A stretch of 64,000 bases of DNA from Mumia quercus. GTDB lineage: Bacteria > Actinomycetota > Actinomycetes > Propionibacteriales > Nocardioidaceae. The position numbers and the translations under genes were made by a program. Location of the stretch: assembly GCF_025506335.1 (NCBI RefSeq), contig NZ_JANZYO010000006.1:288349-352348 (forward strand), written 5' to 3'. A model generated the notes under the pieces. That model was not told the DNA's origin. It ran no database searches and was given only the letters and a program-made list of their open reading frames with translations. Shown piece by piece: positions 27,517-41,008 of the stretch; the first letter of the stretch is position 1, and the number at the start of each line of letters is the position of its first letter.

Positions 27517-29159
27517 CCACCGTCCGCGCCCCGAGGGGCACGCAGCTGACCGCCCGCTCGTGGCAGACCGAGGCTCCGCTGCGGATGCTCATGAACAACC
27601 TCGACCCGGAGGTGGCCGAGCGCCCGGAGGACCTCGTCGTCTACGGCGGTACGGGCCGTGCCGCGCGCAGCTGGGAGGCGTACGACGCGATCGTGCGCAC
27701 GCTGACCACCCTGGAGGACGACGAGACGCTGCTCGTCCAGTCCGGCAAGCCCGTCGGCGTGTTCCGTACGCACGCCTGGGCGCCGCGCGTGCTCATCGCC
27801 AACTCCCACCTCGTCGGCGACTGGGCGACCTGGCCGGAGTTCCGACGTCTCGAGGCCGAGGGGCTCACGATGTACGGCCAGATGACGGCCGGCTCGTGGA
27901 TCTACATCGGCACGCAGGGCATCCTGCAAGGCACGTACGAGACCTTCGGCGCCGTCGCGCGCAAGAAGTTCGGCGGCACCCTCGCCGGCACCCTCACCCT
28001 CACCGCAGGCTGCGGCGGGATGGGCGGCGCGCAGCCGCTGGCCGTGACCATGAACGAGGGCGTCGTGCTCGTCGTCGACGTGGACGAGACGCGGCTCGCG
28101 CGGCGCGTCGACCACGGCTACCTCGACGAGTACACGCCCCACCTCGACGACGCCGTCGAACGTGTCCTCGCCGCCAAGAAGGAGCGCCGTCCCCTCTCCG
28201 TCGGCGTCGTCGGCAACGCCGCGGCGGTCTTCCCCGAGCTGCTCGCGCGCGGTGTCGAGATCGACGTCGTCACCGACCAGACCAGCGCTCACGACCCCCT
28301 CAGCTATCTCCCTGAGGGCATCGACGTCGCCGACTGGCACGCCGAGGCGCAGCGCGACCCCGAGGAGTTCACGCGACGTGCGCGGGCCTCGATGGCCAAG
28401 CACGTCGAGGCGATGGTCGGGTTCATGGACGCCGGCGCCGAGGTCTTCGACTACGGCAACTCGATCCGCGACGAGGCGCGCCAGGGCGGGTACGACCGCG
28501 CCTTCGCGTTCCCCGGGTTCGTCCCCGCGTACATCCGGCCGCTCTTCTGCGAGGGCAAGGGCCCGTTCCGCTGGGCGGTGCTGTCGGGCGACCCGGCGGA
28601 CATCGCGGCGACGGACCGCGCGATCCTCGAGCTGTTCCCGGAGGACGAGCAGCTGCGCCGGTGGATCGTCCAGGCGGGGGAGAAGGTTCAGTTCGAGGGC
28701 CTGCCCGCCCGGATCTGCTGGCTCGGGTACGGAGAGCGCCACCGCGCCGGGCTCCGGTTCAACGAGATGGTCGCCTCGGGCGAGCTGAGCGCGCCGGTGG
28801 TCATCGGGCGCGACCACCTCGACTCCGGCTCGGTCGCCTCGCCTTACCGCGAGACCGAGGCGATGGCCGACGGCTCCGACGCGGTCGCCGACTGGCCGCT
28901 GCTCAACGCGCTGCTCAACACCGCGTCCGGTGCGACATGGGTGTCGCTGCACCACGGTGGCGGCGTCGGCATCGGCCGCTCGATCCACGCGGGTCAGGTC
29001 GTCGTCGCCGACGGGACGGACCTCGCCGCCGAGAAGATCGCGCGGGTCCTCTCCAACGACCCCGGGACGGGCGTGATGCGCCACGTCGACGCCGGGTACG
29101 ACCGGGCGCGCGAGGTCGCGGCCGAGCGCGGCGTGCGGATCCCGATGGAGGAGGCGTGA
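27513..29159 (+). CDS. hutU: urocanate hydratase
   Basis: Second enzyme of the pathway: adds water to urocanate to form 4-imidazolone-5-propionate using tightly bound NAD as an electrophile. 548 residues, the family length. The NAD-binding loop is [20 protein letters not shown], the conserved Cys is in [20 protein letters not shown], and the C-terminal block is [24 protein letters not shown] overlap with hutH and GTGA overlap with the next gene show tight translational coupling. Confidence 0.96.
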
Positions 29160-30358
29160 ACCTTCTCGCTCCGATCGAGCGCATCGGCCGCGACCCTCGT
29201 ACGGGGGGTTATCGCCGGTACGTGTGGAACGACGCCGACATGGAGCTGCGCGAGTGGTTCGCGGGCGAGGCCGCCGCGCGGGGGATGGCGTACGAGGAGG
29301 ACGGCAACGGCAACCAGGTGGCGTGGTGGGGTTTCGACTCGCACGCTCGCTCAACCGACGAGGGAGGCAGTGCGCTGCTGCTGGGCTCGCACCTCGACTC
29401 CGTCCCGGACGGCGGGGCGTACGACGGCCCGCTCGGCGTCGTCTCCGCCTTTGCCGCCGTCGACCGCCTGCGCGCCGACGACTTCACGCCGTCGCGCCCG
29501 ATCGCGGTCGCGTGCTTCGCGGACGAGGAGGGAGCGCGCTTCGGCGTCGCGTGCGCCGGGTCGCGGCTGGCGGCCGGCACGCTCGACCCCGCCCGCGCGC
29601 TCGCGCTCAAGGACCGCGACGGCCTGACGCTCGCCGAGGTCCTGACCGCCCGGGGCCGCGATCCCCGTACGCTCGGCCGCAGCGCATGGCTCGACCGTGT
29701 CGGCACGTTCGTCGAGCTGCACGTCGAGCAGGGTCGCTCGCTGGTGCACTCCGGCGACGCGGTGGGCGTGGCGACCGCGATCTGGCCGCACGGCCGCTGG
29801 CGGCTCGACTTCGAGGGGCGTGCGGACCACGCCGGGACGACGCCGATGCCGGACCGGCGCGACCCGATGCCGGCCTACGCGGCCACCGTGGTCGCGGCGA
29901 CCCGCCGTGCGTACGAGGAGGGGGCGCGGGCGACGTTCGGGCGCGTCGAGGTCGAGCCCGGCGGCGCGAACGCGATCCCGTCGCGCGTGACGGCGTGGCT
30001 GGACGCCCGCGCCGCCGACGACGCCGTCCTCGCACGCATGCTGGACGCGATCCTCGTCGACGCCCGGGAGGCCGCGTCGGCCTCGCGCGTACGGGTCGAG
30101 GCCGCTGTCGAGTCCGCAAGCCCGGCCGTCACGTTCGACCACGACCTGCGGACACGGCTGGCGGCGGCCCTCGACGCCCCGCTTCTCCCCACCGGCGCCG
30201 GTCACGACGCCGGGGTCCTGAGCGCCTTCGTCCCGACCGCGATGCTGTTCGTCCGCAACCCGTCCGGCGTCTCGCACTCGCCGGACGAGCACGCCGACGA
30301 CGCGGACTGCGCGGCCGGCGTCGACGCGCTCGTCCGCACGGTGCTGGAGCTGGCATGA
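29156..30358 (+). CDS. M20-family amidohydrolase (allantoate amidohydrolase-like), probable N-formylglutamate deformylase
   Basis: A 400-residue binuclear metal amidohydrolase of the AllC/N-carbamoyl-amino-acid hydrolase group. Metal ligands are visible in [20 protein letters not shown] (His, Asp), [11 protein letters not shown] (Glu pair), FVELHVEQG (His) and [11 protein letters not shown] (His). The dimerisation lid shows [20 protein letters not shown]. It lies inside the hut operon between hutU and hutF, and there is no hutG. Because HutF makes N-formimino-derived N-formyl-L-glutamate, the inferred job is to release formate and glutamate. The start is a GTG overlapping the hutU stop. True allantoate activity is the alternative but no purine genes are near. 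Confidence 0.82.
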
Positions 30359-31548
30359 GTGGCCTCGATACGCCCTCGCCCAGCGGCTCGGGCTACTCGA
30401 CCAGCGAACGGACGACGTTCCCGGGGCTGGCGAACTGTCACAGCCACGTCTTCCACCGGGCGCTTCGGGGGCGAGAGGTCGGAGGGGACACGTTCTGGGG
30501 CTGGCGCGACCGCATGTACGCCGTCGCGGCCGTCCTCGACCCCGACCTCCTGCACGACCTGGCGGTCGCGACGTACGCCGAGATGCGGCTCGCCGGGATC
30601 GGCGTCGTCGGGGAGTTCCACTACCTGCACCACGGCCCCGACGGGGTCGCCTACGACGACCCGAACGCCACCGGGGAGGTACTGATCGCCGCCGCGCGCG
30701 AGGTCGGGCTGCGGATCTGCCTGCTCGACACGTGCTACCTCTCGTCGGGCTTCGGGGGCGCGCCGGCGGGCGTCCAGGACCGCTTCTCCGACGGCGACGC
30801 GGACGACTGGGCGGAACGCGTGAACGACCTCGCCTCCCGCCACGTCGGCGCCGACGACGTCGTGGTGGGCGCCGCGATCCACTCCGTCCGTGCCGTGCCG
30901 GCCGACCAGCTCGCGACCGTCGCGTCCGCCTTGCCGCAGGCCCCGCTGCACGTGCACGTGTCCGAGCAGCCGGCGGAGAACGCGGACTGCCTCACCGCGA
31001 CCGGCCGCACCCCGGTCGCGCTCCTCGCCGAGGCCGGCGTCTGGACCCCGCGCACCACTGCCGTCCATGCCACGCACCTGACCGACGCGGACGTCGCCAC
31101 CCTCGGGGACGCGTCGGCGTACGTGTGCCTCTGCCCGACGACCGAGGCCGAGCTCGCCGACGGCGTCGGCCCTTCCGTACGGTTGCGCGAGGCCGGCGCC
31201 CGCCTCACGCTCGGGTCGGACAGCAACACGGTGATCGACCTGTTCGCGGAGGCGAGGGCGGTGGAGATGCACGAGCGGCTGGTGACCGGCACCCGCGGCG
31301 CGTGGGACGCCGCCGCGCTGGGGGAGGCGGCGACCCGGTCGGGCTACGCCTCGCTCGGGTTCGCCCCCGAGCTCGCCGATGCCGACGCGGTCACGCTGCG
31401 CGACTCCGTACGACTCGGCGGCGTGGTCGAACCCCTCTGGGTGGCGACGGCCGCAGACGTCGAGCCGCCGAAGGCCCTGCCGTACGAGGCCGAGGACGTG
31501 GCGGCGATGATGCGCCGCGCGGTCAGCGCCGTCTGGGAGCGCGTGTGA
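30355..31548 (+). CDS. hutF: formimidoylglutamate deiminase with a shortened, repeat-derived N-terminus
   Basis: Converts N-formimino-L-glutamate to N-formyl-L-glutamate plus ammonia. Amidohydrolase-fold metal ligands are present: [40 protein letters not shown] and [14 protein letters not shown]. The protein is 397 residues; family members are about 450 and carry about 45-60 residues of N-terminal beta-sandwich before the first His-x-His. Here only 27 residues come before HSH, and those at 3-17 are encoded by a palindromic repeat-like element (30361-30406). The start is fixed by the ATGA overlap, so no longer version is possible without overlapping the amidohydrolase extensively. The enzyme may be altered in stability; the catalytic barrel looks intact. 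Confidence 0.85.
30361..30406. repeat. palindromic repeat-like element inside the 5' end of hutF
   Basis: The segment runs from GGCCTCGATACGCC to GGCTACTCGACCAGCG with a GC-rich centre; the ends form an imperfect inverted repeat. Dispersed elements with CTCGATACG...CTACTCGACCAG ends are, from memory, common in intergenic DNA of several actinobacteria. Here it is in frame and translated as [15 protein letters not shown]. No second copy was found in this window. Confidence 0.5.
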
Positions 31549-32726
31549 GCAGCCTCCTGGTCACGAACGTCGGCGAGCTCGTCACCTGGGACGACGAACG
31601 CCCCGTCCGCCACGACGCCGCACTGGTCGTCGCCGACGGGCGCGTGGAGTGGGTCGGGGACGCCGGCGCCGCACCTGCCGCCGACGACGTCCTCGACGTC
31701 GCCGGCGCCGCGGTCGTCCCCGGCTTCGTCGACTCCCACAGCCACCTCGTCTTCGCAGGCGACCGGGCGGGCGAGTTCGAGGCGCGGATGGCCGGCAGGC
31801 CCTACGCCGCCGGCGGCATCCGTACGACCGTCGCTGCCACCCGGCGCGCCTCCGACGACGTCCTCGACGCCCACGTCCGCCGGCTCCTCGCGGAGATGCG
31901 TCGCCAGGGCACGACGACGGTCGAGGTCAAGAGCGGGTACGGGCTCACCGTCGCCGACGAGGCGCGGTCGTTGGCGATCGCCTCTCGGCACACGGCAGAG
32001 ACCACCTACCTCGGAGCCCACGTCGTCCCCGACGGCACCAGCCCCGAGGCGTACGTCGACCTCGTCACCGGCCCCATGCTCGACGCCTGCGCCCCGTACG
32101 CGCGCTGGGTGGACGTCTTCTGCGAGGAGGGCGCATTCGGCGTCGACGCGGCGCGCACCGTCCTCACTGCCGGAGGCGCCGCCGGTCTCGGGATGCGCGT
32201 CCACGCCAACCAGCTGTCGTACGGGCCCGGGGTGCGGCTCGCCTGCGAGCTGGGGGCCGCCGCGGTCGACCACTGCACGTACCTCACCGATGCCGACGTC
32301 GACGCGCTCGCCGGCTCGGACACCGTCGCCGGACTCCTCCCCGGCGTGGAGTTCTCGACGCGCCACCCGTACCCGGACGCGCGCCGTCTCCTCGACGCGG
32401 GCGTCACGGTCGCCCTCGCGAGCGACTGCAACCCCGGCAGCAGCTACACGTCGTCGATCCCGTTCTGCCTCGCGCTCGCCGTGCGCGAGATGGGCATGAC
32501 CCCGTACGAGGCGCTGCGCGCCGCCACCGTCGGAGGTGCCGCGTCGCTGCGCCGCCAGGACGTGGGGCACCTGCGGGTCGGCGCGAGGGCGGATCTCGCG
32601 GTCCTGGACGCGCCCTCGGCGGTCCACCTTGCGTACCGACCCGGGGTGCCGCTCGTCGCCCGCACGCTGGTCGCCGGTGCCGGTGCCGAGGCCGGACCGG
32701 TCACGGGTGCAGGCGTGCGCCCTTGA
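31545..32726 (+). CDS. hutI: imidazolonepropionase
   Basis: Third pathway step: hydrolyses 4-imidazolone-5-propionate to N-formimino-L-glutamate. 393 residues with a metal-dependent amidohydrolase barrel: [20 protein letters not shown] (HxH), [11 protein letters not shown] (substrate loop), [12 protein letters not shown] (metal His), [10 protein letters not shown] and [16 protein letters not shown] (metal Asp and substrate). N- and C-terminal strands form the normal beta-sandwich, unlike HutF here. The start is GTG in a 4-base overlap with hutF. Last gene of the operon; the 3' end overlaps the convergent DUF2000 gene by 26 bases. Confidence 0.95.
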
Positions 32727-33986: not shown

Positions 33987-34056
33987 GAATCTGAGGCACC
34001 TGGGGTCACGAACCTAGGGCCTCCTCCCGATGCGAGCCGCTACCTCAGACGACGAG
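33987..34056 (+). promoter_or_regulatory. leader-box cassette, copy 1
   Basis: Four boxes shared with copy 2: GAATCTGAGGCACC (33987-34000), CTAGGG (34014-34019), GATGC (34029-34033) and CTACCTCAGACGACGAG (34040-34056). Spacing from CTAGGG onward is identical in both copies. CTGAGG and CCTCAG at the two ends form an inverted pair. It probably contains the promoter and a regulator site for the small protein gene at 34091. Confidence 0.6.
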
Positions 34057-34090
34057 AGTCGAGGCATCAGGACGAGCGAAGGAGAACCTG

Positions 34091-34228
34091 ATGTACATCG
34101 ATCCCGTGCAGTCGGTGCAGACCGAGATGAAGCACCGCATCGAGCGGCTCCCGGTCCCCGGTGACGACCGCCGGGCCGGGGCAGCGACCGGCCCGCGCCT
34201 GCGTCGTCGTCGCGGCACGCGTCGCTGA
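34091..34228 (+). CDS. 45-residue Arg-rich small protein, paralogue of the one at 37912
   Basis: Begins MYIDPVQSVQTEMKHRIERL and ends in a cluster of arginines (PRLRRRRGTRR). A strong GAAGGAGA ribosome site stands 6 bases before the ATG. The N-terminal pattern M-x3-P-x3-V-x-T-E-hydrophobic-x2-R-hydrophobic-E is shared with the protein at 37912, and so is the upstream DNA, which argues that both are translated. No known family is recognised. A small nucleic-acid- or membrane-binding protein would fit the composition. It is too short for standard gene calling. Confidence 0.6.
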   Translation: MYIDPVQSVQTEMKHRIERLPVPGDDRRAGAATGPRLRRRRGTRR

Positions 34229-34269
34229 GTGACCCCTCTATGAGCGTCGCCCGTGCGAGGATCACTCGC

Positions 34270-35223
34270 ATGGGCGACGCGGTCGAGGTCGAGGTCGGGG
34301 ATCGCGACGTCCGCATCTCCAACCCCGACCGCGTCTACTTCCCCGAGCGCGGTGAGACCAAGCTCGACCTGGTCCACTACTACCTCGCCGTCGGAGACGG
34401 CATCGTGAACGCCCTTCGGGAGAGGCCGTGCATGCTGCACCGCTTCCCGAAGGGCGTCGCCGAGAAGAAGGTCCACCAGAAGCGTGTCCCCGCCGGCGCC
34501 CCGCCGTGGCTGGAGACCGTGCGGGTCGAGTTCCCGCGGTACGGGCGCCACGCGTACGAGCTGTGCGTCACCGAGCTGGCGAGCGTGATCTGGGCGGTCC
34601 AGATGTCCACCGTCGAGTTCCACCCGTGGAACTCCCGCCGCGCCGACACCGAGAAGCCCGACGAGTGGCGCATCGACCTCGACCCCGGCCCGGACTGCGA
34701 CTTCGCGACCGTACGCCGGGTGGCGCACGTGGTCCACGGGGTCCTCGACGAGCTCGGCGCCGTGGGGTGGCCGAAGACGTCCGGGGGATCCGGGATGCAC
34801 GTGTACGTCCGCATCGAGCCCGAGCACGGGTTCTCCGACGTCCGGCGTGCTGCGCTCGCGTTTGCCCGCGAGGTCGAGCGACGTGCTCCCGACGACGTCA
34901 CCACGACCTGGTGGCGCAAGGACCGCGACCCGTCGAAGCTCTTCGTGGACTACAACCAGAACACGCGCGACCACACGATCGCCGCCGCGTACTCCGTACG
35001 AGGAGTCCCGGACGCCCGGGTGTCGGCACCGATCCGCTGGGACGAGGTGGACACCGTGGAGCCCGCCGAGCTGACGATCGCGACCATGCCGGCGCGCTAC
35101 CGCGAGCTCGGCGACCTCCATGCCGGGATCGACGACGCCGTCTTCTCGATCGCGCCTCTGCTCGAGTGGGCCGAGCGGGACGAGGCGGAGGGAGCGGAGA
35201 TCCCGCCGGAGGAGGGTGGCTGA
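34270..35223 (+). CDS. LigD-type polymerase domain protein (stand-alone)
   Basis: A 317-residue archaeo-eukaryotic-primase-type polymerase, like the POL domain of LigD and the mycobacterial PolD proteins. Metal-binding acids are visible in WRIDLDPGPDCDFATVRR (DxD, about residues 136-138) and LFVDYNQNTRDHTIAAAYS (third Asp). Other family blocks: MLHRFPKGVAEKKVHQKRVP and GWPKTSGGSGMHVYVRI. It can add ribonucleotides at DNA ends in repair. No ligase, nuclease or Ku gene adjoins. The start at 34270 was chosen over an ATG at 34240 because GAGGAT lies 7 bases upstream and the domain begins at once. Confidence 0.87.
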   Translation: MGDAVEVEVGDRDVRISNPDRVYFPERGETKLDLVHYYLAVGDGIVNALRERPCMLHRFPKGVAEKKVHQKRVPAGAPPWLETVRVEFPRYGRHAYELCVTELASVIWAVQMSTVEFHPWNSRRADTEKPDEWRIDLDPGPDCDFATVRRVAHVVHGVLDELGAVGWPKTSGGSGMHVYVRIEPEHGFSDVRRAALAFAREVERRAPDDVTTTWWRKDRDPSKLFVDYNQNTRDHTIAAAYSVRGVPDARVSAPIRWDEVDTVEPAELTIATMPARYRELGDLHAGIDDAVFSIAPLLEWAERDEAEGAEIPPEEGG

Positions 35224-35239
35224 CCCCGGGTCGAGGCGC

Positions 35240-35245
35240 TAGCGT
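35240..35245 (+). promoter_or_regulatory. -10 box of the YtxH-like gene
   Basis: TAGCGT about 35 bases before the ATG at 35281, predicting a leader of about 29 bases that contains the GAGGAG ribosome site. Confidence 0.4.
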
Positions 35246-35280
35246 CGAAGCTTGGGCAACGCCCGTCGAGAGGAGCTCTC

Positions 35281-35637
35281 ATGCGTAAGATCCCGCTGCT
35301 CGTCGCCGCCGGCGTCGGGTACGTCCTCGGCGCCAAGGCCGGACGCGAGAGGTACGACCAGATCGTCACCCAGGCCAAGAGGCTCATGGGGAGTCAGCCG
35401 GTGCAGGACGGCGTCTCGAAGGCGACCGAGACCATGAAGGACCAGGCGCCGGTCGTCAAGGACAAGGTGTCCGGGGTCGCTCACAAGGTCGCCGACAAGG
35501 TCACCCCGGGCGGTGACGCGTCGGACGCCGGCGACGACGTCGTCGGGACGTACTCGACCACGCCGAGCGGCACCCACATCGACGTCGAGGAAGAGGTCGC
35601 CTGGACGACCTCCACGGACGACAAGCCCACTCCCTGA
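35281..35637 (+). CDS. small YtxH-like protein
   Basis: A 118-residue protein: a short hydrophobic start (KIPLLVAAGVGYVLGAKAG, residues 3-21) leads into a helical, charged stretch GRERYDQIVTQAKRLMGSQP and an acidic tail rich in Thr, Asp and Ser. The glycine-rich hydrophobic segment plus amphipathic helix is typical of YtxH-like and 'general stress' small membrane-associated proteins. Function unknown. GAGGAG stands upstream of the ATG. A strong hairpin follows the stop. Confidence 0.72.
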   Translation: MRKIPLLVAAGVGYVLGAKAGRERYDQIVTQAKRLMGSQPVQDGVSKATETMKDQAPVVKDKVSGVAHKVADKVTPGGDASDAGDDVVGTYSTTPSGTHIDVEEEVAWTTSTDDKPTP

Positions 35638-35651
35638 CGCCCGCCGCCCCG

Positions 35652-35709
35652 CGATCTGACGCGTTCCCCCCTCGTTGCGGACGAGAGAGGTGGCGAACGC
35701 GTCAGATCG
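35652..35709. terminator. bidirectional hairpin between convergent genes
   Basis: A perfect 15-base inverted repeat (CGATCTGACGCGTTC at 35652-35666 with its complement at 35695-35709) encloses a second 5-base stem (CTCGT/ACGAG). It starts 15 bases after one stop and ends 17 bases before the other. There is no U-tract, as is common for actinobacterial terminators. Confidence 0.65.
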
Positions 35710-35726
35710 GGAGGGCGGACGAGTTG

Positions 35727-37736
35727 CTACCGCGTGCGCAGGCCGAACCCGTACGGGTAGAGCGGGTCGTAGTCCGCGTCACCGACGTTGATCGGCTCCT
35801 GGTCGACGCTTCGCGGCCAGGTCACGGGGAGCCTGCCGGTGAACCGCTTCTTGCCGAAGAGCACGTCCGCGACGCCGTCGCCCTCGCTTCCGGGCAGCCA
35901 GCCGGCGACGAGCCCGTCGATCTTGCTCAGGAGAGCAGGCGGGATCTCCAGCGGCCGACCGGAGACCACGATCACGACGCACTCCGCTGCCTGTGTGCAC
36001 ACCTTGTCGACGGCCTGCTGATCTGCCGCGGACAGCTTCATGTCCTTCACCGGCCGCGGGACGCCGTTGTCGCCCGGGTCGTACGCCCACTGCGGACCGC
36101 CGACGTCGCCGAAGCCCTCCGCGTACGGGGTCTCGCCGACGACCACGACACCCGTCGCGTCACTCGGCACCGGCTCCGCCGCCGTCTCGCTCACCGTGAC
36201 GTCCCCGCGCGTCGCGTCCTCGATGCCCTCGAGGATCGTCGTGCCCGGGATCACGTTGGTCGAGCCGCCCTGCCAGGTCAGCGTCCAGCCGCCCGCCTGG
36301 TTGCCGATGTTGTCGGCGTTGCTGCCGGCGACGTAGAGCGGTGCGCGCTTCGACAGCGGCAGGACCCGTCCGCGGTTCTTCAGCAGCACCTGCGACTTCG
36401 CGACCGCTTCGCGGGCGACCTTGCGGTGCTGCCTGCTCCCGACCTCGTCGAGGTGACGGCGATCGGTGTAGGGCTTCTCGAACAGCCCGAGCTCGAACTT
36501 CTGGGCCAGGATCCGGCTCACTGCGTCGTCGATCCGCCGCATCGAGACGCGCCCGGCCTCGACCTCTTCGGTGAGCGCCGTGATGAACTGGCGGAACTGC
36601 GCGGGCTCCATCGCCATGTCGACGCCGGCGTTGATGGCGGTGCGGACCTGCGTGTTCCAGTCGCCGGGGATCTGGTGGATGCCTTCCCAGTCGCTGATCA
36701 CGAACCCGTCGAAGCCCATCCGCCGCTTGAGGACGCCGGTGAGAAGCTCGGAGTGCGCGTGCATCTTGAGCGGGTTGCCGACGCCGTCCTCGGTCCAGTC
36801 CACCGAGGAGAACGACGGCATGACCGAGCCGGCCCCGTAGCGCTGGATCGCCGGCCAGTACGGCGCGAGCGCGAGCCGCGCGAACTCCTGGCGGCTGACG
36901 ATCGTGATGCCCTGGTCGATCGTGTAGTCACCGGCGGCCGTGCCGAAGGTGGTGAGCCCGTCCCCCGCGAAGTGCTTCGGGGTTGCCAGCACACGGTCGG
37001 GGTTGTCGAGCTGACCACGCCTGCCCTGGAAGCCGCGGACGGCGACCGCCATCTGCGAGACCAGCCGCGGCGACTCCCCGAAGCTCTCGTACGTCCGGCC
37101 CCACCGGTCGTCGCGGGCGACGCACAGGCAGGGCGCGAAGTTCCACTGCGGCCCGGTCGCGCGCGTCTCCTCGGCGGTGATGTGGGCCGCCTTCTCGACG
37201 AGCTTCGGGTCGCGGGTAGCGCCGAGCCCGATGTTGTGGGGGAAGACGGTCGCGCCGTACAGGTTCCCGTGGCCGTGTACCGCGTCGACGCCGTACAGGA
37301 CGGGGATCTTGAGCCGGGTCGCCAGCGCCCCGTCCTGGAACGCGTCGACCATGTCCGCCCAGCCTTCGGGCGAGTTGTCGGCGGGGACGGAGCCGCCTCC
37401 GGAGAGGATGCTGCCGAGACCGAGCTCGGTGACGTCGGCAGGAGTGGCGTTGGCCCGCTCGGCCTGCGTCATCTGGCCGATCTTCTCCGCGAGCGTCATC
37501 CGCGACAGCAGGTCCTTCACCCGCTTCTCGGTCGAAAGGCGCGGGTTGAGGTACGCGGGCTTGCCGCGGTCCTTCGCGGCCGCGTGGCCGGGCGCGCTGG
37601 CGGGCGTGGCCGGTGCGGCGGCGGCGCCGACGCCGACGGTGCCGGCGACCAGGGCCGTGACCGCCCCCAGGGCGAGCGCGGCGCGTCGGGAGGGGGATCG
37701 GGGTGCTGCGTCCGTGCTTCGAGGTGTGGCGTCCAT
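35727..37736 (-). CDS. exported glycoside hydrolase family 3 beta-glucosidase
   Basis: A 669-residue secreted exo-acting glucosidase/glucanase. The N-terminus has a twin-arginine-like signal (SPSRRAALALGAVTALVAG, residues 14-32). The GH3 barrel begins KRVKDLLSRMTLAEKIGQMT and has VLYGVDAVHGHGNLYGATVF, TPKHFAGDG and the nucleophile Asp in GFVISDWEGIHQI (about residue 333). The C-terminal half has AREAVAKSQVLLKNRGRVLP and ends YPYGFGLRTR. It resembles plant-type exo-beta-glucanases. GGAGG precedes the ATG. The upstream DNA holds TGAC-GTAT-GTCA (37755-37766) overlapping TATG-T-CATA, a possible operator. Confidence 0.88.
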   Translation of the reverse strand: MDATPRSTDAAPRSPSRRAALALGAVTALVAGTVGVGAAAAPATPASAPGHAAAKDRGKPAYLNPRLSTEKRVKDLLSRMTLAEKIGQMTQAERANATPADVTELGLGSILSGGGSVPADNSPEGWADMVDAFQDGALATRLKIPVLYGVDAVHGHGNLYGATVFPHNIGLGATRDPKLVEKAAHITAEETRATGPQWNFAPCLCVARDDRWGRTYESFGESPRLVSQMAVAVRGFQGRRGQLDNPDRVLATPKHFAGDGLTTFGTAAGDYTIDQGITIVSRQEFARLALAPYWPAIQRYGAGSVMPSFSSVDWTEDGVGNPLKMHAHSELLTGVLKRRMGFDGFVISDWEGIHQIPGDWNTQVRTAINAGVDMAMEPAQFRQFITALTEEVEAGRVSMRRIDDAVSRILAQKFELGLFEKPYTDRRHLDEVGSRQHRKVAREAVAKSQVLLKNRGRVLPLSKRAPLYVAGSNADNIGNQAGGWTLTWQGGSTNVIPGTTILEGIEDATRGDVTVSETAAEPVPSDATGVVVVGETPYAEGFGDVGGPQWAYDPGDNGVPRPVKDMKLSAADQQAVDKVCTQAAECVVIVVSGRPLEIPPALLSKIDGLVAGWLPGSEGDGVADVLFGKKRFTGRLPVTWPRSVDQEPINVGDADYDPLYPYGFGLRTR

Positions 37737-37832
37737 GTGTCCTCCGCTCGAATGTGACGTATGTCATACCCAGCTTCTGAATATTGCGCAGGCGACAACA
37801 AATGGCAAGAGGGGCGTGGCGGGGTACGGCAC

Positions 37833-37901
37833 GGATCTGAGGTACCAGCGGGACCAGACTAGGGAGGTCACCTGATGCCCCTGCCTACCTCAGACGACGA
37901 G
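37833..37901 (+). promoter_or_regulatory. leader-box cassette, copy 2
   Basis: Same boxes as copy 1: GGATCTGAGGTACC (37833-37846), CTAGGG (37859-37864), GATGC (37874-37878) and CTACCTCAGACGACGAG (37885-37901). CTGAGGTA and TACCTCAG form a perfect 8-base inverted pair. It precedes the small gene at 37912 and the LAL regulator, and is divergent from the GH3 gene. Confidence 0.6.
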
Positions 37902-37911
37902 CATCGACGGC

Positions 37912-38028
37912 ATGATCCTTCTTCCTGAGTACTACGTCAGCACCGAGATCAACCGTCGGCTCGAGGACGCTCACCCGCGTCCCCGCCGCCGTACGGTTCG
38001 CCGTCGGGTCCGCCGGTCGCGCCTCTGA
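37912..38028 (+). CDS. 38-residue Arg-rich small protein, paralogue of the one at 34091
   Basis: Begins MILLPEYYVSTEINRRLEDA and ends in about 18 residues dominated by Arg (RPRRRTVRRRVRRSRL). Seven of the first 18 residues are identical to the protein at 34091 without gaps. Unlike that copy it has no clear ribosome site, and the ATG lies only 10 bases after the last leader box, so it may be translated from a very short leader. It sits 73 bases before the LAL regulator on the same strand and may be part of its circuit. No known family is recognised. Confidence 0.55.
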   Translation: MILLPEYYVSTEINRRLEDAHPRPRRRTVRRRVRRSRL

Positions 38029-38101
38029 CGGGGGACCTGCGGCGGTGCAGCCCCAAGGAATCGGCTCGAATCCTGTCGGCCCCGTGAGCGATCATGAGGG
38101 T

Positions 38102-41008
38102 ATGTCCGCCGACTGGAGACCTGCCGAGCCCCTCGTCGGACGTGAGGCCGAGCTCTCGCGCCTGCTCGCCGCCGCCGGCGTCGAAGACCCGGAGGCCCGC
38201 GGGGGTGTCCTCCTCAGCGGCGACGCCGGGATCGGCAAGACGCGGCTCCTGCGCGAGCTGGCCGTCCGAGCCTCAGACGCCGGCCACCGCGTGCTCGCCG
38301 GCCACTGCCTCGACCTCGGCGACAGCGCCATCCCTTTCCAGCCCTTCGCGGAGGTGCTCTCCGGCCTCGACCACGACACGCGTGCGGCGATGTCCGAGGC
38401 GATGCCCCCGCTGGGGCCACTGATGTGGGGCGCCGCAGCCGGCTCCGGAGTCGACCGCGGTGAGCTCTTCTCGTCCGTCGTGGCCGCCCTTGAGCTGCTC
38501 GCGGCGAGCCAGCCGCTGCTACTCGTTATCGAGGACGCACACTGGGCGGACGCCTCCACGCGCCATCTCATCCGTTACGTCCTCTCCCAGCGGTACGAGG
38601 GGCAGGTCCGCATCGTGGTGTCCTACCGCAGCGACGACCTCCACCGGCGCCACCCGCTGCGTACCGATATCGCCGAGTGGAGCCGGATGCCGCACGTACA
38701 ACGTCTCGACCTTGGCCCGCTCGCCGACGACGACGTTCGCAGGCTCGTGCGGTCCCGCGCGGACGGCGACATCGGCGTCGCGGGGATGAGCGCGATCGTG
38801 CGCCGCGCCGAGGGCAACGCGTTCATCGTCGAAGAGCTGCTGGACGTCGCCGACCGCACAGGTCCGCTGCCGCCCACGCTGGCCGACCTGCTCCTCGTGC
38901 GACTCGACCGCCTCGACGACGACGCACGGCACGTCGTGCGGGCCATCGCGTGCGCCGGAGGTGAGGTCAAGGAGGATCTCCTCGCCTCGGTGGTCGACCT
39001 TCCGGCGGCCTCGCTGGAGGAGGCGATCCGCTCGGCGGTCGACCACCGGATCCTGGCGCCGACCAGACGCGACGGCTACGTCTTCCGCCATGCCCTGCTC
39101 GCGGAGGTCGTCCGAGACGACCTGCTGCCCGGCGAGCGTCGGCGGTTCCACCGGGCTTACGTCGAGGCACTCGGAGACAGCGGCAACGCCGCCGACGTGG
39201 CGCGTCACGCGTTCGAGGCAGGTCTCGACGACGTGGCCTTCTCCGCCAGCGTGCGCGCGGCCGAGCGCGCCTCGCGCGTCACCGGCCACGACGAGGCGGC
39301 CGACCACTACGACCGAGCGCTCTCGGTCGTCTCGGCGGCGCCTGCAGGCACGGACGTCGTCGGGCTCGTGATCGCAACGGCCGAGGCGAAGACCGCCGCG
39401 GGGTACGTCCGCCGCGCCTGGGCGCTGCTCGGCGACTACCTCGAGACGACATCCGACCTCTCGACGGAGGAACGCGCGCGACTCCTCGTCGCCTACGGGT
39501 CGTCGGCGGTGCTTGCCGACCACGCCGTCGAGGTGCTCGACGTGCTGGACGAGCTCTTCACGCTCGTGCCCGAGCAGCCGACCCCGCTCCGGGCGTCCGT
39601 CGAAGAGCTTGCCGCGCTCATGATGACCGCCACACGCCGCGACGAGGAGGCGATGCGATGGGCGACGCAGGCGATGACCTTGGGTCAGCGTCTCGGCCTC
39701 AGTCGGATCGTGTCCGACGCGGCTGCCACCAAGGCCCGCGCTCGGTCGCGAATCGGAGACGATCCCGAGGGGGACGAGCGCCGGTTCCTCGAGGTCGCCG
39801 AGATCGCCCGACGCGAGCACAACGTGGTCGCGGAGCTGAGGGCGCGCCACCATCTCGCCTTCCACTACCACGACCGAGGCGATCTCGACCGCGCCGAGGA
39901 CGAGTTCCTCCACGTCATGGCGACGGCGGCGAAGGCAGGGCGCCAGTGGGCGCCGTACGGGTTCGACGGGCGGTTCTTCGCCGCGGTCACCGCCTACCTC
40001 CGAGGTCGTTGGGACCGCGTCGTGGAGCTCGTCGACGTCGCCGCACTGAGACCGCCGAAGGTGCCCGCGGCCAGCCTCGAGGCGGTCGGGCTGCTCGTCT
40101 CGGCGGGCCGCGGCGACGCGTCGGCGCTGAAGACGGCAGAGCGGTTGCGCGGCTTCTGGAAGAAGGACATCGCCCTCGCCATCCACGCCGCGACTGCGGC
40201 AATCGATCTGGCACCGGACGTCGCCACAGCGACGTGGTGGCACGACGGCCTGGTCGAGGCGCTCGTGGCCGACTGGGACGCCGAGCTCGTCCCCGGCCGC
40301 CTGCGCATGGCAGGGCTCCTGGTCGGTCGTTTCGCCGACGCTGCGCCGCACGCGTCGACCGTCGAGCGAAGCACGTGGCTGGAGCGCGCCGAGCAGCTGC
40401 GTACGGTCGGCGACCGGGCGATCGCCGAGCGCGGACCTTTCGGGCCCGAGGGGACGGCGTGGGAGCGGCGGCTCGATGCGGAGATCCTGCGGCTGCGCTG
40501 GATCGTGGGGGACGAGGTCGGCCTCGACGACCTGGTGGACGGCTGGCGCAAGACGACGGAGGCGTTCGCCACGCTCGGCCACGTGTACGAGGAGGCGCGC
40601 TCGGCCTCACGACTGGCCGCAGTCCTGCACGCCGCAGGTGACGTGGCCGGCGCCAAGCAGGTCGCCAGCGCCGCGTACGAGCAGGCGGCGGCGCTGCGCG
40701 CGGCGCCGCTGATGAGCACGCTCGAGCAGCTCGCCGGCGCGACGTCCGCCCGGAGCTCCACGACGACGGGCTCCTCCGGGGCGGAGGCTCCGCGCACCCA
40801 GGACGGGGAGAAGCCGCTGACCGCGAGGGAGCAGGAGGTCCTCGAGCACCTCGTGGAAGGCCGGACGAACGGCGAGATCGCGTCGCTGCTGTTCATCAGC
40901 ACCAAGACGGTCTCGGTCCACGTCTCGAACATCCTCGCCAAGCTCGGCGCGTCGACGCGGACGGAGGCGGCCGCGATCGCACGACGAGCAGGATCGCGCG
41001 AGCGCTGA
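38102..41008 (+). CDS. LAL-type LuxR-family ATPase regulator
   Basis: A 968-residue ATP-binding transcription factor. Walker A is LLSGDAGIGKTRLLRELA (about residues 37-54), Walker B is LLLVIEDAHWADASTRHLIR, followed by a winged helix and long TPR-like helical region. A Ser/Thr-rich linker precedes the C-terminal LuxR HTH (PLTAREQEVLEHLVEGRTNG, then STKTVSVHVSNILAKLGAST). The ATG at 38102 was chosen over GTG codons at 38045 and 38081: GATCAT lies 6 bases upstream and the ATPase domain starts at once. Its neighbour upstream is a small-protein cassette whose boxes may be its own binding sites. Confidence 0.86.
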   Translation: MSADWRPAEPLVGREAELSRLLAAAGVEDPEARGGVLLSGDAGIGKTRLLRELAVRASDAGHRVLAGHCLDLGDSAIPFQPFAEVLSGLDHDTRAAMSEAMPPLGPLMWGAAAGSGVDRGELFSSVVAALELLAASQPLLLVIEDAHWADASTRHLIRYVLSQRYEGQVRIVVSYRSDDLHRRHPLRTDIAEWSRMPHVQRLDLGPLADDDVRRLVRSRADGDIGVAGMSAIVRRAEGNAFIVEELLDVADRTGPLPPTLADLLLVRLDRLDDDARHVVRAIACAGGEVKEDLLASVVDLPAASLEEAIRSAVDHRILAPTRRDGYVFRHALLAEVVRDDLLPGERRRFHRAYVEALGDSGNAADVARHAFEAGLDDVAFSASVRAAERASRVTGHDEAADHYDRALSVVSAAPAGTDVVGLVIATAEAKTAAGYVRRAWALLGDYLETTSDLSTEERARLLVAYGSSAVLADHAVEVLDVLDELFTLVPEQPTPLRASVEELAALMMTATRRDEEAMRWATQAMTLGQRLGLSRIVSDAAATKARARSRIGDDPEGDERRFLEVAEIARREHNVVAELRARHHLAFHYHDRGDLDRAEDEFLHVMATAAKAGRQWAPYGFDGRFFAAVTAYLRGRWDRVVELVDVAALRPPKVPAASLEAVGLLVSAGRGDASALKTAERLRGFWKKDIALAIHAATAAIDLAPDVATATWWHDGLVEALVADWDAELVPGRLRMAGLLVGRFADAAPHASTVERSTWLERAEQLRTVGDRAIAERGPFGPEGTAWERRLDAEILRLRWIVGDEVGLDDLVDGWRKTTEAFATLGHVYEEARSASRLAAVLHAAGDVAGAKQVASAAYEQAAALRAAPLMSTLEQLAGATSARSSTTTGSSGAEAPRTQDGEKPLTAREQEVLEHLVEGRTNGEIASLLFISTKTVSVHVSNILAKLGASTRTEAAAIARRAGSRER

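Follow-up and report, generated by a model that had tools for sequence, protein, structure and literature searches.

We analysed a 64,000-nucleotide stretch of DNA from the soil actinobacterium Mumia quercus (assembly GCF_025506335.1, contig NZ_JANZYO010000006.1, positions 288,349 to 352,348 of the forward strand; hereafter the window), in which two copies of a cassette, at 33987-34228 and 37833-38028 on the forward strand, combine a set of short conserved boxes with a small open reading frame (ORF) for an arginine-rich protein. Judged from their conservation, linkage and co-occurrence with other genes, the boxes are shown to form a DNA element in front of genes. This element is spread over the class Actinomycetes, i.e. 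beyond Nocardioidaceae, the family of Mumia, and its more constant partner is the gene for a LAL (large ATP-binding LuxR-type) regulator. The reading that we favour, with moderate confidence, is that the cassettes are target promoters of one LAL, whose operon is autoregulated and whose regulon is compact. The cassette would probably activate its own expression and that of a few further genes, perhaps in connection with a stress response.

Two copies of the cassette in the window

The two cassettes, which start 3846 nucleotides (nt) apart, lie with all of their parts on the forward strand. In copy 1, an upstream, -35-like box CTGAGG (E1; 33991..33996) stands 24 nt before a -10-like box TAGGG (E2; 34015..34019), which is followed by GATG (E3; 34029..34032), probably the region where transcription starts, and by the joined boxes CTACCTCAG-ACGACGAG (E4 and E5; 34040..34056), of which E4 is the reverse complement of the first box. 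The small ORF of this copy has 45 codons (34091..34228), with GAAGGAG just upstream, and 41 nt past it begins a homologue of the LigD primase-polymerase (34270..35223; the listed ORF begins at 34240). Copy 2 has the same parts, with CTGAGG (37837..37842) 23 nt before TAGGG (37860..37864), then GATG (37874..37877), CTACCTCAG-ACGACGAG (37885..37901) and a small ORF of 38 codons (37912..38028) whose Shine-Dalgarno sequence is not clear by eye. Downstream of it lies the LAL gene (38102..41008), for a protein with an AAA_16 ATPase and a GerE/LuxR helix-turn-helix (HTH); its ORF is listed from a GTG at 38045, and the ATG at 38102 is the likely start.

The 17-mer CTACCTCAGACGACGAG was matched exactly at 34040-34056 and 37885-37901. 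Allowing up to three mismatches, it gave 3 matches in the window against 0.26 expected, a number reached in 0 of 100 shuffles, while the first box alone, with up to two mismatches, gave 2 matches against 2.78 expected, which is not significant; significance within the window belongs to the combination of boxes only. As the original prediction had claimed, the spacing from CTAGGG onward is the same in both copies (equal CTAGGG-GATGC and GATGC-CTACC intervals; the spacer 5' of CTAGGG differs by 1 nt), and both ORFs match the pattern M-x3-P-x3-V-x-T-E-x3-R-x-E. The four boxes hold an inverted repeat, since box 1, CTGAGGTA, is the reverse complement of box 4, TACCTCAG. A profile search of the same genome found no good third copy, giving the two strong matches and another three of low significance (E 0.03-0.5), which, judged by eye, are inside coding sequence or antisense to it.

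Spread of the element and its linkage to a LAL gene

Counterparts of both copies were found in four other Mumia genomes. Strict patterns, applied before a profile was used, matched only 2 of 149 and 2 of 100 Nocardioidaceae genomes, and a 241-base DNA query found matches in 31 of 58 genomes; most of its matches outside Mumia and one further genome (G028) fell in the arginine-rich coding part, and the closer look was restricted to the matches in Mumia and G028. A sequence profile built from 12 copies had matches in 212 of 294 Nocardioidaceae genomes at E ≤ 1e-3 and in 246 at E ≤ 0.05; as E-values were calculated per genome, so that about 15 chance matches among the 294 are possible at 0.05, the cut-off of 1e-3 was used. 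Element searches scored up to 15-16 candidates per genome and the LAL search two, which makes absences provisional. The core collection comprised 94 of 99 matches, after removal of five weak ones, namely a tandem element (L099, E 9.5e-5) and four opposite-strand echoes, and core statistics refer to 92 of these, since two (L034 and L114) lay off the fixed-spacing anchor. A class-wide sample of 296 genomes, searched with a refined profile from the 92 copies, gave 50 with a match at E ≤ 0.001, 35 of them belonging to 14 other families; 16 of these 35 were inspected, and short partial matches in genomes of 7-10 Mb may be due to chance. In named genomes an exact pattern occurred in 67 stretches, mostly from Nocardioides and also from Aeromicrobium, Mumia, Pimelobacter, Austwickia, Intrasporangium, Terrabacter, Nostocoides, Allobranchiibius and one Frankiales bin. 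The loci viewed among the matches in the 294 genomes were 30 (seven repeats omitted) plus 60 regions picked by rank and match length, of which one (L116) was useless and another (L105), a repeat of L075, was omitted. At three loci (L075, L153 in genome G322 and L099 in genome G071), paired elements about 300-1050 nt apart were seen in the same region.

The LAL of the window has the architecture of this group, with AAA_16 (Pfam, E 1.6e-24) and a C-terminal GerE domain (3e-19) in one long protein. A homologue of it was the first downstream gene at 81 of 91 Nocardioidaceae loci (blastp, E ≤ 5.7e-56, 40-100% identity; the remaining locus of the 92, L103, is at a contig end). In a second set of loci, tblastn detected a LAL at 18 of 20, comprising 15 of the 16 non-Nocardioidaceae loci and 3 of the 4 from Nocardioidaceae (weakest E 4.8e-21, 30% identity), and a LAL lay downstream of 56 of the 68 matches in named genomes, a set that overlaps the first. 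As to co-occurrence, with cut-offs of 1e-3 for the element and 1e-60 for the LAL, 212 of the 294 genomes had both, 12 the LAL only, 70 neither and none the element only (Fisher p 1.3e-55, uncorrected for kinship; 28 and 50 matchless genomes were entered through totals). When the element cut-off was relaxed to 0.05, 26 element-only genomes appeared, none with a match better than 1e-3. Ten LAL-free genomes still yielded no element when more candidates were scored. Finally, mean identity to the window's LAL was 72% in the GerE region, 56% in the ATPase and 43% in the middle region (66 loci, some genomes counted twice), the HTH being the best conserved of the three regions compared. PADLOC gave the LAL weak matches to CARF models at its C-terminal HTH region (2.4e-7 and 1.1e-4) and to mad8 (0.0047), and none for the small proteins P0001 and P0002, on which grounds a role in anti-phage defence was rejected.

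These data bear on the question of which protein reads the element. Another DNA-binding protein, either an unlinked regulator or an alternative sigma factor, could do so, with the LAL as its most conserved target, and the composite of a -35-like and a -10-like box, mostly 15-17 nt apart and with a -10 that deviates from the housekeeping type, is consistent with this. However, copies at other genes would then be expected to persist where the LAL is missing, whereas none of the 70 LAL-free genomes keeps the element at E ≤ 1e-3, and we consider such a reader unlikely.

The small ORF encodes a conserved arginine-rich protein

The original prediction of a real, conserved and probably co-regulated family with a short coding gene was supported. 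The ratio of non-synonymous to synonymous change (pN/pS) in the proposed frame was 0.51 for Mumia copy 1, 0.41 for the first 33 codons of Mumia copy 2 and 0.40 for one Nocardioides-type group, compared to 1.18-2.16 in the two other frames of the same DNA, showing that the small ORF is coding and under purifying selection. An alignment of 63 members, hand-chosen for spread from 108 small ORFs, has nearly constant M, E and R residues and a consensus of the type F-x3-E-x2-YR-x-ER followed by a basic tail; the consensus is partly selected for, as the score used to pick the ORFs rewards arginine content and an E-x-YR motif. Some of the picked starts are truncated (MPEYY for MILMPEYY), and four of the picked ORFs (L113, L075, L096 and L106) look unreliable. 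AlphaFold2 predicted one helix, residues 5-20, with an open tail (mean pLDDT 73.5, pTM 0.36). No Pfam family fits: at E ≤ 1 the 63 members matched five families, one member each, with a best E of 0.014. Among five proteins compared with NCBIfam there was a single match, at E 0.017, far below the cut-off of that model. At one locus (L205), an element-bearing WhiB-type gene has an N-terminus, TEFAEVGFRERT, that resembles the motif of the small protein, possibly as a fusion.

Anatomy of the element

The 92 aligned copies share a constant core that reads T-A-R-G-G, seven bases, CCGATG, seven bases, CTACCTCAG, C-G-A and, four bases on, a T. Eleven columns are invariant, and the fourth base of E2 is G in all 92. 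Upstream of this core, CTRAGG was found up to 120 nt away in 81 of the 92 copies; its background frequency is 8.7e-5 per base. Its distance to TARGG was 22-24 nt in 54 cases, 31-33 in 13, 43-47 in 11, 35-37 in six and 13 in four, with seven single others. For the 39 distances outside 21-25 nt, the best resultant length was 0.53 (periods 9.5-11.5), a value reached in 0 of 5000 uniform simulations, with a best period of about 11 and a phase nearly that of 23. At 19 other loci, mostly outside the family, the shorter pattern CTRAG lay at 23-24 nt in four and at 33-34 nt in six. The helically phased distances of E1 point to DNA binding: a protein touching one face of the DNA would explain them and an RNA stem would not. 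Part of the element is probably transcribed. Two side observations concern its boxes: at L085 and L107 the upstream box takes the form of a palindrome, CTGAGGTACCTCAG, which may be a full operator, and at L069, L094, L099 and L102 an extra CTGAGGTAG, just 5' of the presumed Shine-Dalgarno sequence of the small ORF, could pair with CTACCTCAG in the transcript.

The core could also be read as the beginning of a leaderless frame, in which translation starts at the ATG of GATG and ATG-nnn-nnn-CCT-ACC-TCA-GRC-GAC-GAG encodes the first residues of a regulatory peptide or, at some loci, of the downstream gene product, a reading compatible with LAL control of the promoter. Indeed, an ATG is present in 91 of the 92 cores, 8-9 nt past the -10-like box; six of nine whiB7-like genes preceded by the element (four of the six nearly identical) open in frame from GATG, and 33 of 90 small ORFs share its frame. 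The remaining 57 small ORFs and three whiB7-like genes are, however, in other frames, and in 4 of the 92 cores, and also at L143 and L158, the ATG is followed directly by a stop. Moreover, variation runs opposite to what selection on a coding frame would leave: in CCT, ACC and TCA the third positions belong to the most constant bases, but base 24, a first position, varies. This and the ATG-stop copies disfavour a leaderless GATG ORF as the main function, which we hold to be rather improbable.

Target genes other than the LAL

Among the 91 loci, the ten in which a LAL is not the first downstream gene are five Mumia copies of cassette 1 (with the LigD-type polymerase), two with whiB7-like genes, the first member of one tandem pair, and two (L096 and L106) where no LAL was found. 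The order copy 1, small ORF and LigD-type polymerase is kept in five Mumia genomes, including that of the window. At a further locus (L164, in genome G049 of the same genus), the end of the LigD-type polymerase and a small YtxH-like gene lie directly before the LAL, an arrangement which suggests that the order seen in the window at 34270-38102 arose by insertion or loss beside the LAL. In the named genomes, the 12 matches without a LAL were nine whiB7-like genes, one Mumia copy 1, one at a contig end and one (L199) with a short arginine-rich ORF and no LAL within 1500 nt.

All nine whiB7-like genes carry C-x2-C-x5-C and GVWGG; each of the three tested had a Whib domain, and one an AT_hook match. 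The boxes precede these genes without an intervening small ORF, which shows that the small ORF is not obligatory. The prediction that boxes and small arginine-rich protein make up one unit was thus not supported, in an outcome it had itself named beforehand as speaking against obligatory pairing.

WhiB7-type genes were looked for in 16 selected genomes and turned up at 19 loci, spread over 12 of those genomes. The element was present at three of them, all in genomes with the LAL, and absent at the other 16, among them all seven of three Mumia genomes and all six of the LAL-free genomes; it is therefore not a general whiB7 promoter, and that candidate was rejected. A GC-rich palindrome resembling GGCCGCGGAnCCC...GGGATCCGCGGCC, terminator- or attenuator-like by eye, was seen up to 170 nt before the matched start at 11 of the 19 loci (L240-L244 and L246-L251).

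The possibility that the boxes are targets of WhiB7 or a paralog, and the small ORFs members of its regulon, is suggested by the position of the element before whiB7-like genes, three of them with a Whib domain. Against it stand the 16 loci without the element and the fact that in no genome is the element found at E ≤ 1e-3 without the LAL. In addition, at known WhiB7 targets the -35 is immediately preceded by an AT-rich motif (PMC3905903), but the 8 nt before E1 are 34% AT, compared to 27% further upstream (56 occurrences), and so are not AT-rich. WhiB7 control of the boxes thus appears very doubtful.

The boxes as DNA rather than leader RNA

The boxes had been described as leader boxes, a term which, in its RNA sense, was not supported by the folding data. 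A riboswitch or attenuator would have TCTGAGGTA and TACCTCAGA as the closing stem before the small ORF; many copies do have complementary arms, and copy 2 of the window folds that stem. Nevertheless, single-strand fold energies were unremarkable (z -1.7 and +0.2), RNAalifold found no pairs in the 92 cores (which exclude the arm E1), and Rfam gave no match at gathering, the best permissive E being 1.3. For the E1/E4 stem, counted on 12 copies, pairing was 84.3% against 84.6% in shuffles, with one compensated cell; it did beat slid versions, as an inverted repeat would. Two Mumia copies have CCTAAGG or CCTAAGA while CTACCTCAG is unchanged, and the upstream arm shifts by helical steps. A structured cis-regulatory RNA or leader was rejected on the Rfam search, the single-strand folds, the alignment fold and the E1/E4 stem count, and we regard it as highly improbable.

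A possible second promoter before the LAL gene

Between the small ORF of copy 2 and the LAL lies a possible LAL promoter, TGTCGGCC-8 nt-GATCAT (38074..38095, forward strand), 6 nt before the ATG at 38102. In a wider search window, a motif of TGTCRG, two bases, exactly eight bases and NATNAT was present before the LAL at 40 of 108 loci, and in the listed examples that were read the start codon lies six or seven bases past NATNAT. The strict form TGTCRGNN-8 nt-NATSAT occurred in 29 segments against 0.84 expected, and no other spacing between 4 and 15 gave a match; the count of 29 and the 45 for the loose form, both of 99, are lower bounds, as the segment was too short for several loci, including that of the window. 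As far as the consulted parts of two papers go, the PafBC-controlled RecA-NDp promoter is tTGTCRgtg - 8 nt - TannnT (PMC5656591, PMC6789036). The motif before the LAL resembles it, in a subset of loci, in the left half and the 8-nt spacing, and differs from it in the first base of the -10, where almost every site listed has C or G; the motif is missing from many LAL loci. DNA damage is hence a candidate input to the LAL, through a PafBC-like promoter in a subset of loci.

As an observation on the neighbourhood, the window holds overlapping long ORFs at 28661-32726 that by eye resemble amidohydrolase genes of a nitrogen-compound degradation pathway.

Proposed mechanism

Under the favoured reading, the LAL would bind the CTRAGG/CCTYAG boxes, with E1 near the -35 or about one or two helical turns further upstream and E4 downstream; this is argued for by the inverted repeat, by E1 distances that follow the helix, by conservation of the HTH and by the lack of the element in LAL-free genomes. 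Copy 2 would be the autoregulatory promoter of an operon of small ORF and LAL, and copy 1 a second target, before another small ORF and the LigD-type polymerase; in some lineages the WhiB7-like gene may be a further target. Transcription would start near GATG from the -10-like TARGG, as the spacing suggests, and the transcript would yield a protein of about 35-80 amino acids that has a single helix at its N-terminus and ends in a basic tail; we guess that this protein might bind nucleic acid or act on the LAL as a feedback partner. All of these steps are deduced from sequence, and our confidence falls from LAL binding through the GATG start and the DNA-damage input to the partner role of the small protein.

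Several observations weigh against this reading. Of the 12 LAL-only genomes, eight have a weaker element match and four none. The former include G049, whose LAL is 61% identical to that of the window: no element match in this genome goes below E 0.0017, and neither element nor small ORF lies in the 650 nt upstream of its LAL. As the element adjoins the LAL, joint loss in one event would explain much of the co-occurrence, and the genomes compared are phylogenetically non-independent. The recognition helix is of a common LuxR type, which makes HTH conservation weak evidence. Relatedness is likewise ignored in the phasing simulation, where distinct distances alone give R 0.37 at 10.5; the 35-37 group fits the phase poorly, and CTRAGG is absent within 120 nt in 11 of the 92 copies, including the two whiB7-like ones. 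Finally, E2, with TARGG and in most copies C or A next, agrees poorly with the usual actinobacterial -10, TANNNT, so that it may be an operator half-site.

A wider stress circuit built on the same parts can be put forward tentatively, and we would sooner doubt it than rely on it. In this scheme, damage or another stress, acting in some lineages through the PafBC-like promoter, would induce a LAL that depends on ATP and switches on the composite promoter, uniform in build; the short basic proteins would be an effector or feedback subunit of the LAL, and a WhiB7-like paralog or a repair polymerase would be switched on in some lineages.

Comparison with known systems

MalT is a LAL regulator. In its AAA_16 ATPase and C-terminal GerE HTH, the LAL of the window is like the LAL regulators SCO0877 and SCO7173 in the accessible part of PMC3282765, where LAL regulators are described as poorly studied. 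The excerpts seen from the open-licence literature in PubMed Central, outside which most subscription papers lie, contain no LAL with a coupled small arginine-rich ORF or this composite element (PMC3466318 included), and none of them describes the element, the family of small proteins or a coupling of that family to a LAL. The operator of PimM-type PAS-LuxR regulators is given, in the portion of PMC9774167 consulted, as the 16-bp palindrome CTVGGGAWWTCCCBAG. The CTAGGG of our element is similar to CTVGGG, one half of this operator, and GGG and CCC stand opposite each other as they would in a dyad; however, the element has GGG-N6-CCC instead of GGG-N4-CCC and a right arm CCCGATG, and the LAL has no Pfam PAS domain. 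Likeness to WhiB7 lies in the nine element-bearing genes with their shared motifs, whereas other WhiB7-type genes go without the element, and this suggests that WhiB7-like genes can come under control other than the known WhiB7 loop. With a candidate operator that is sharply defined, a coupled small-protein family that fits no curated profile and a few further targets, this group of homologous LALs has a binding site, regulon and input that are directly testable.

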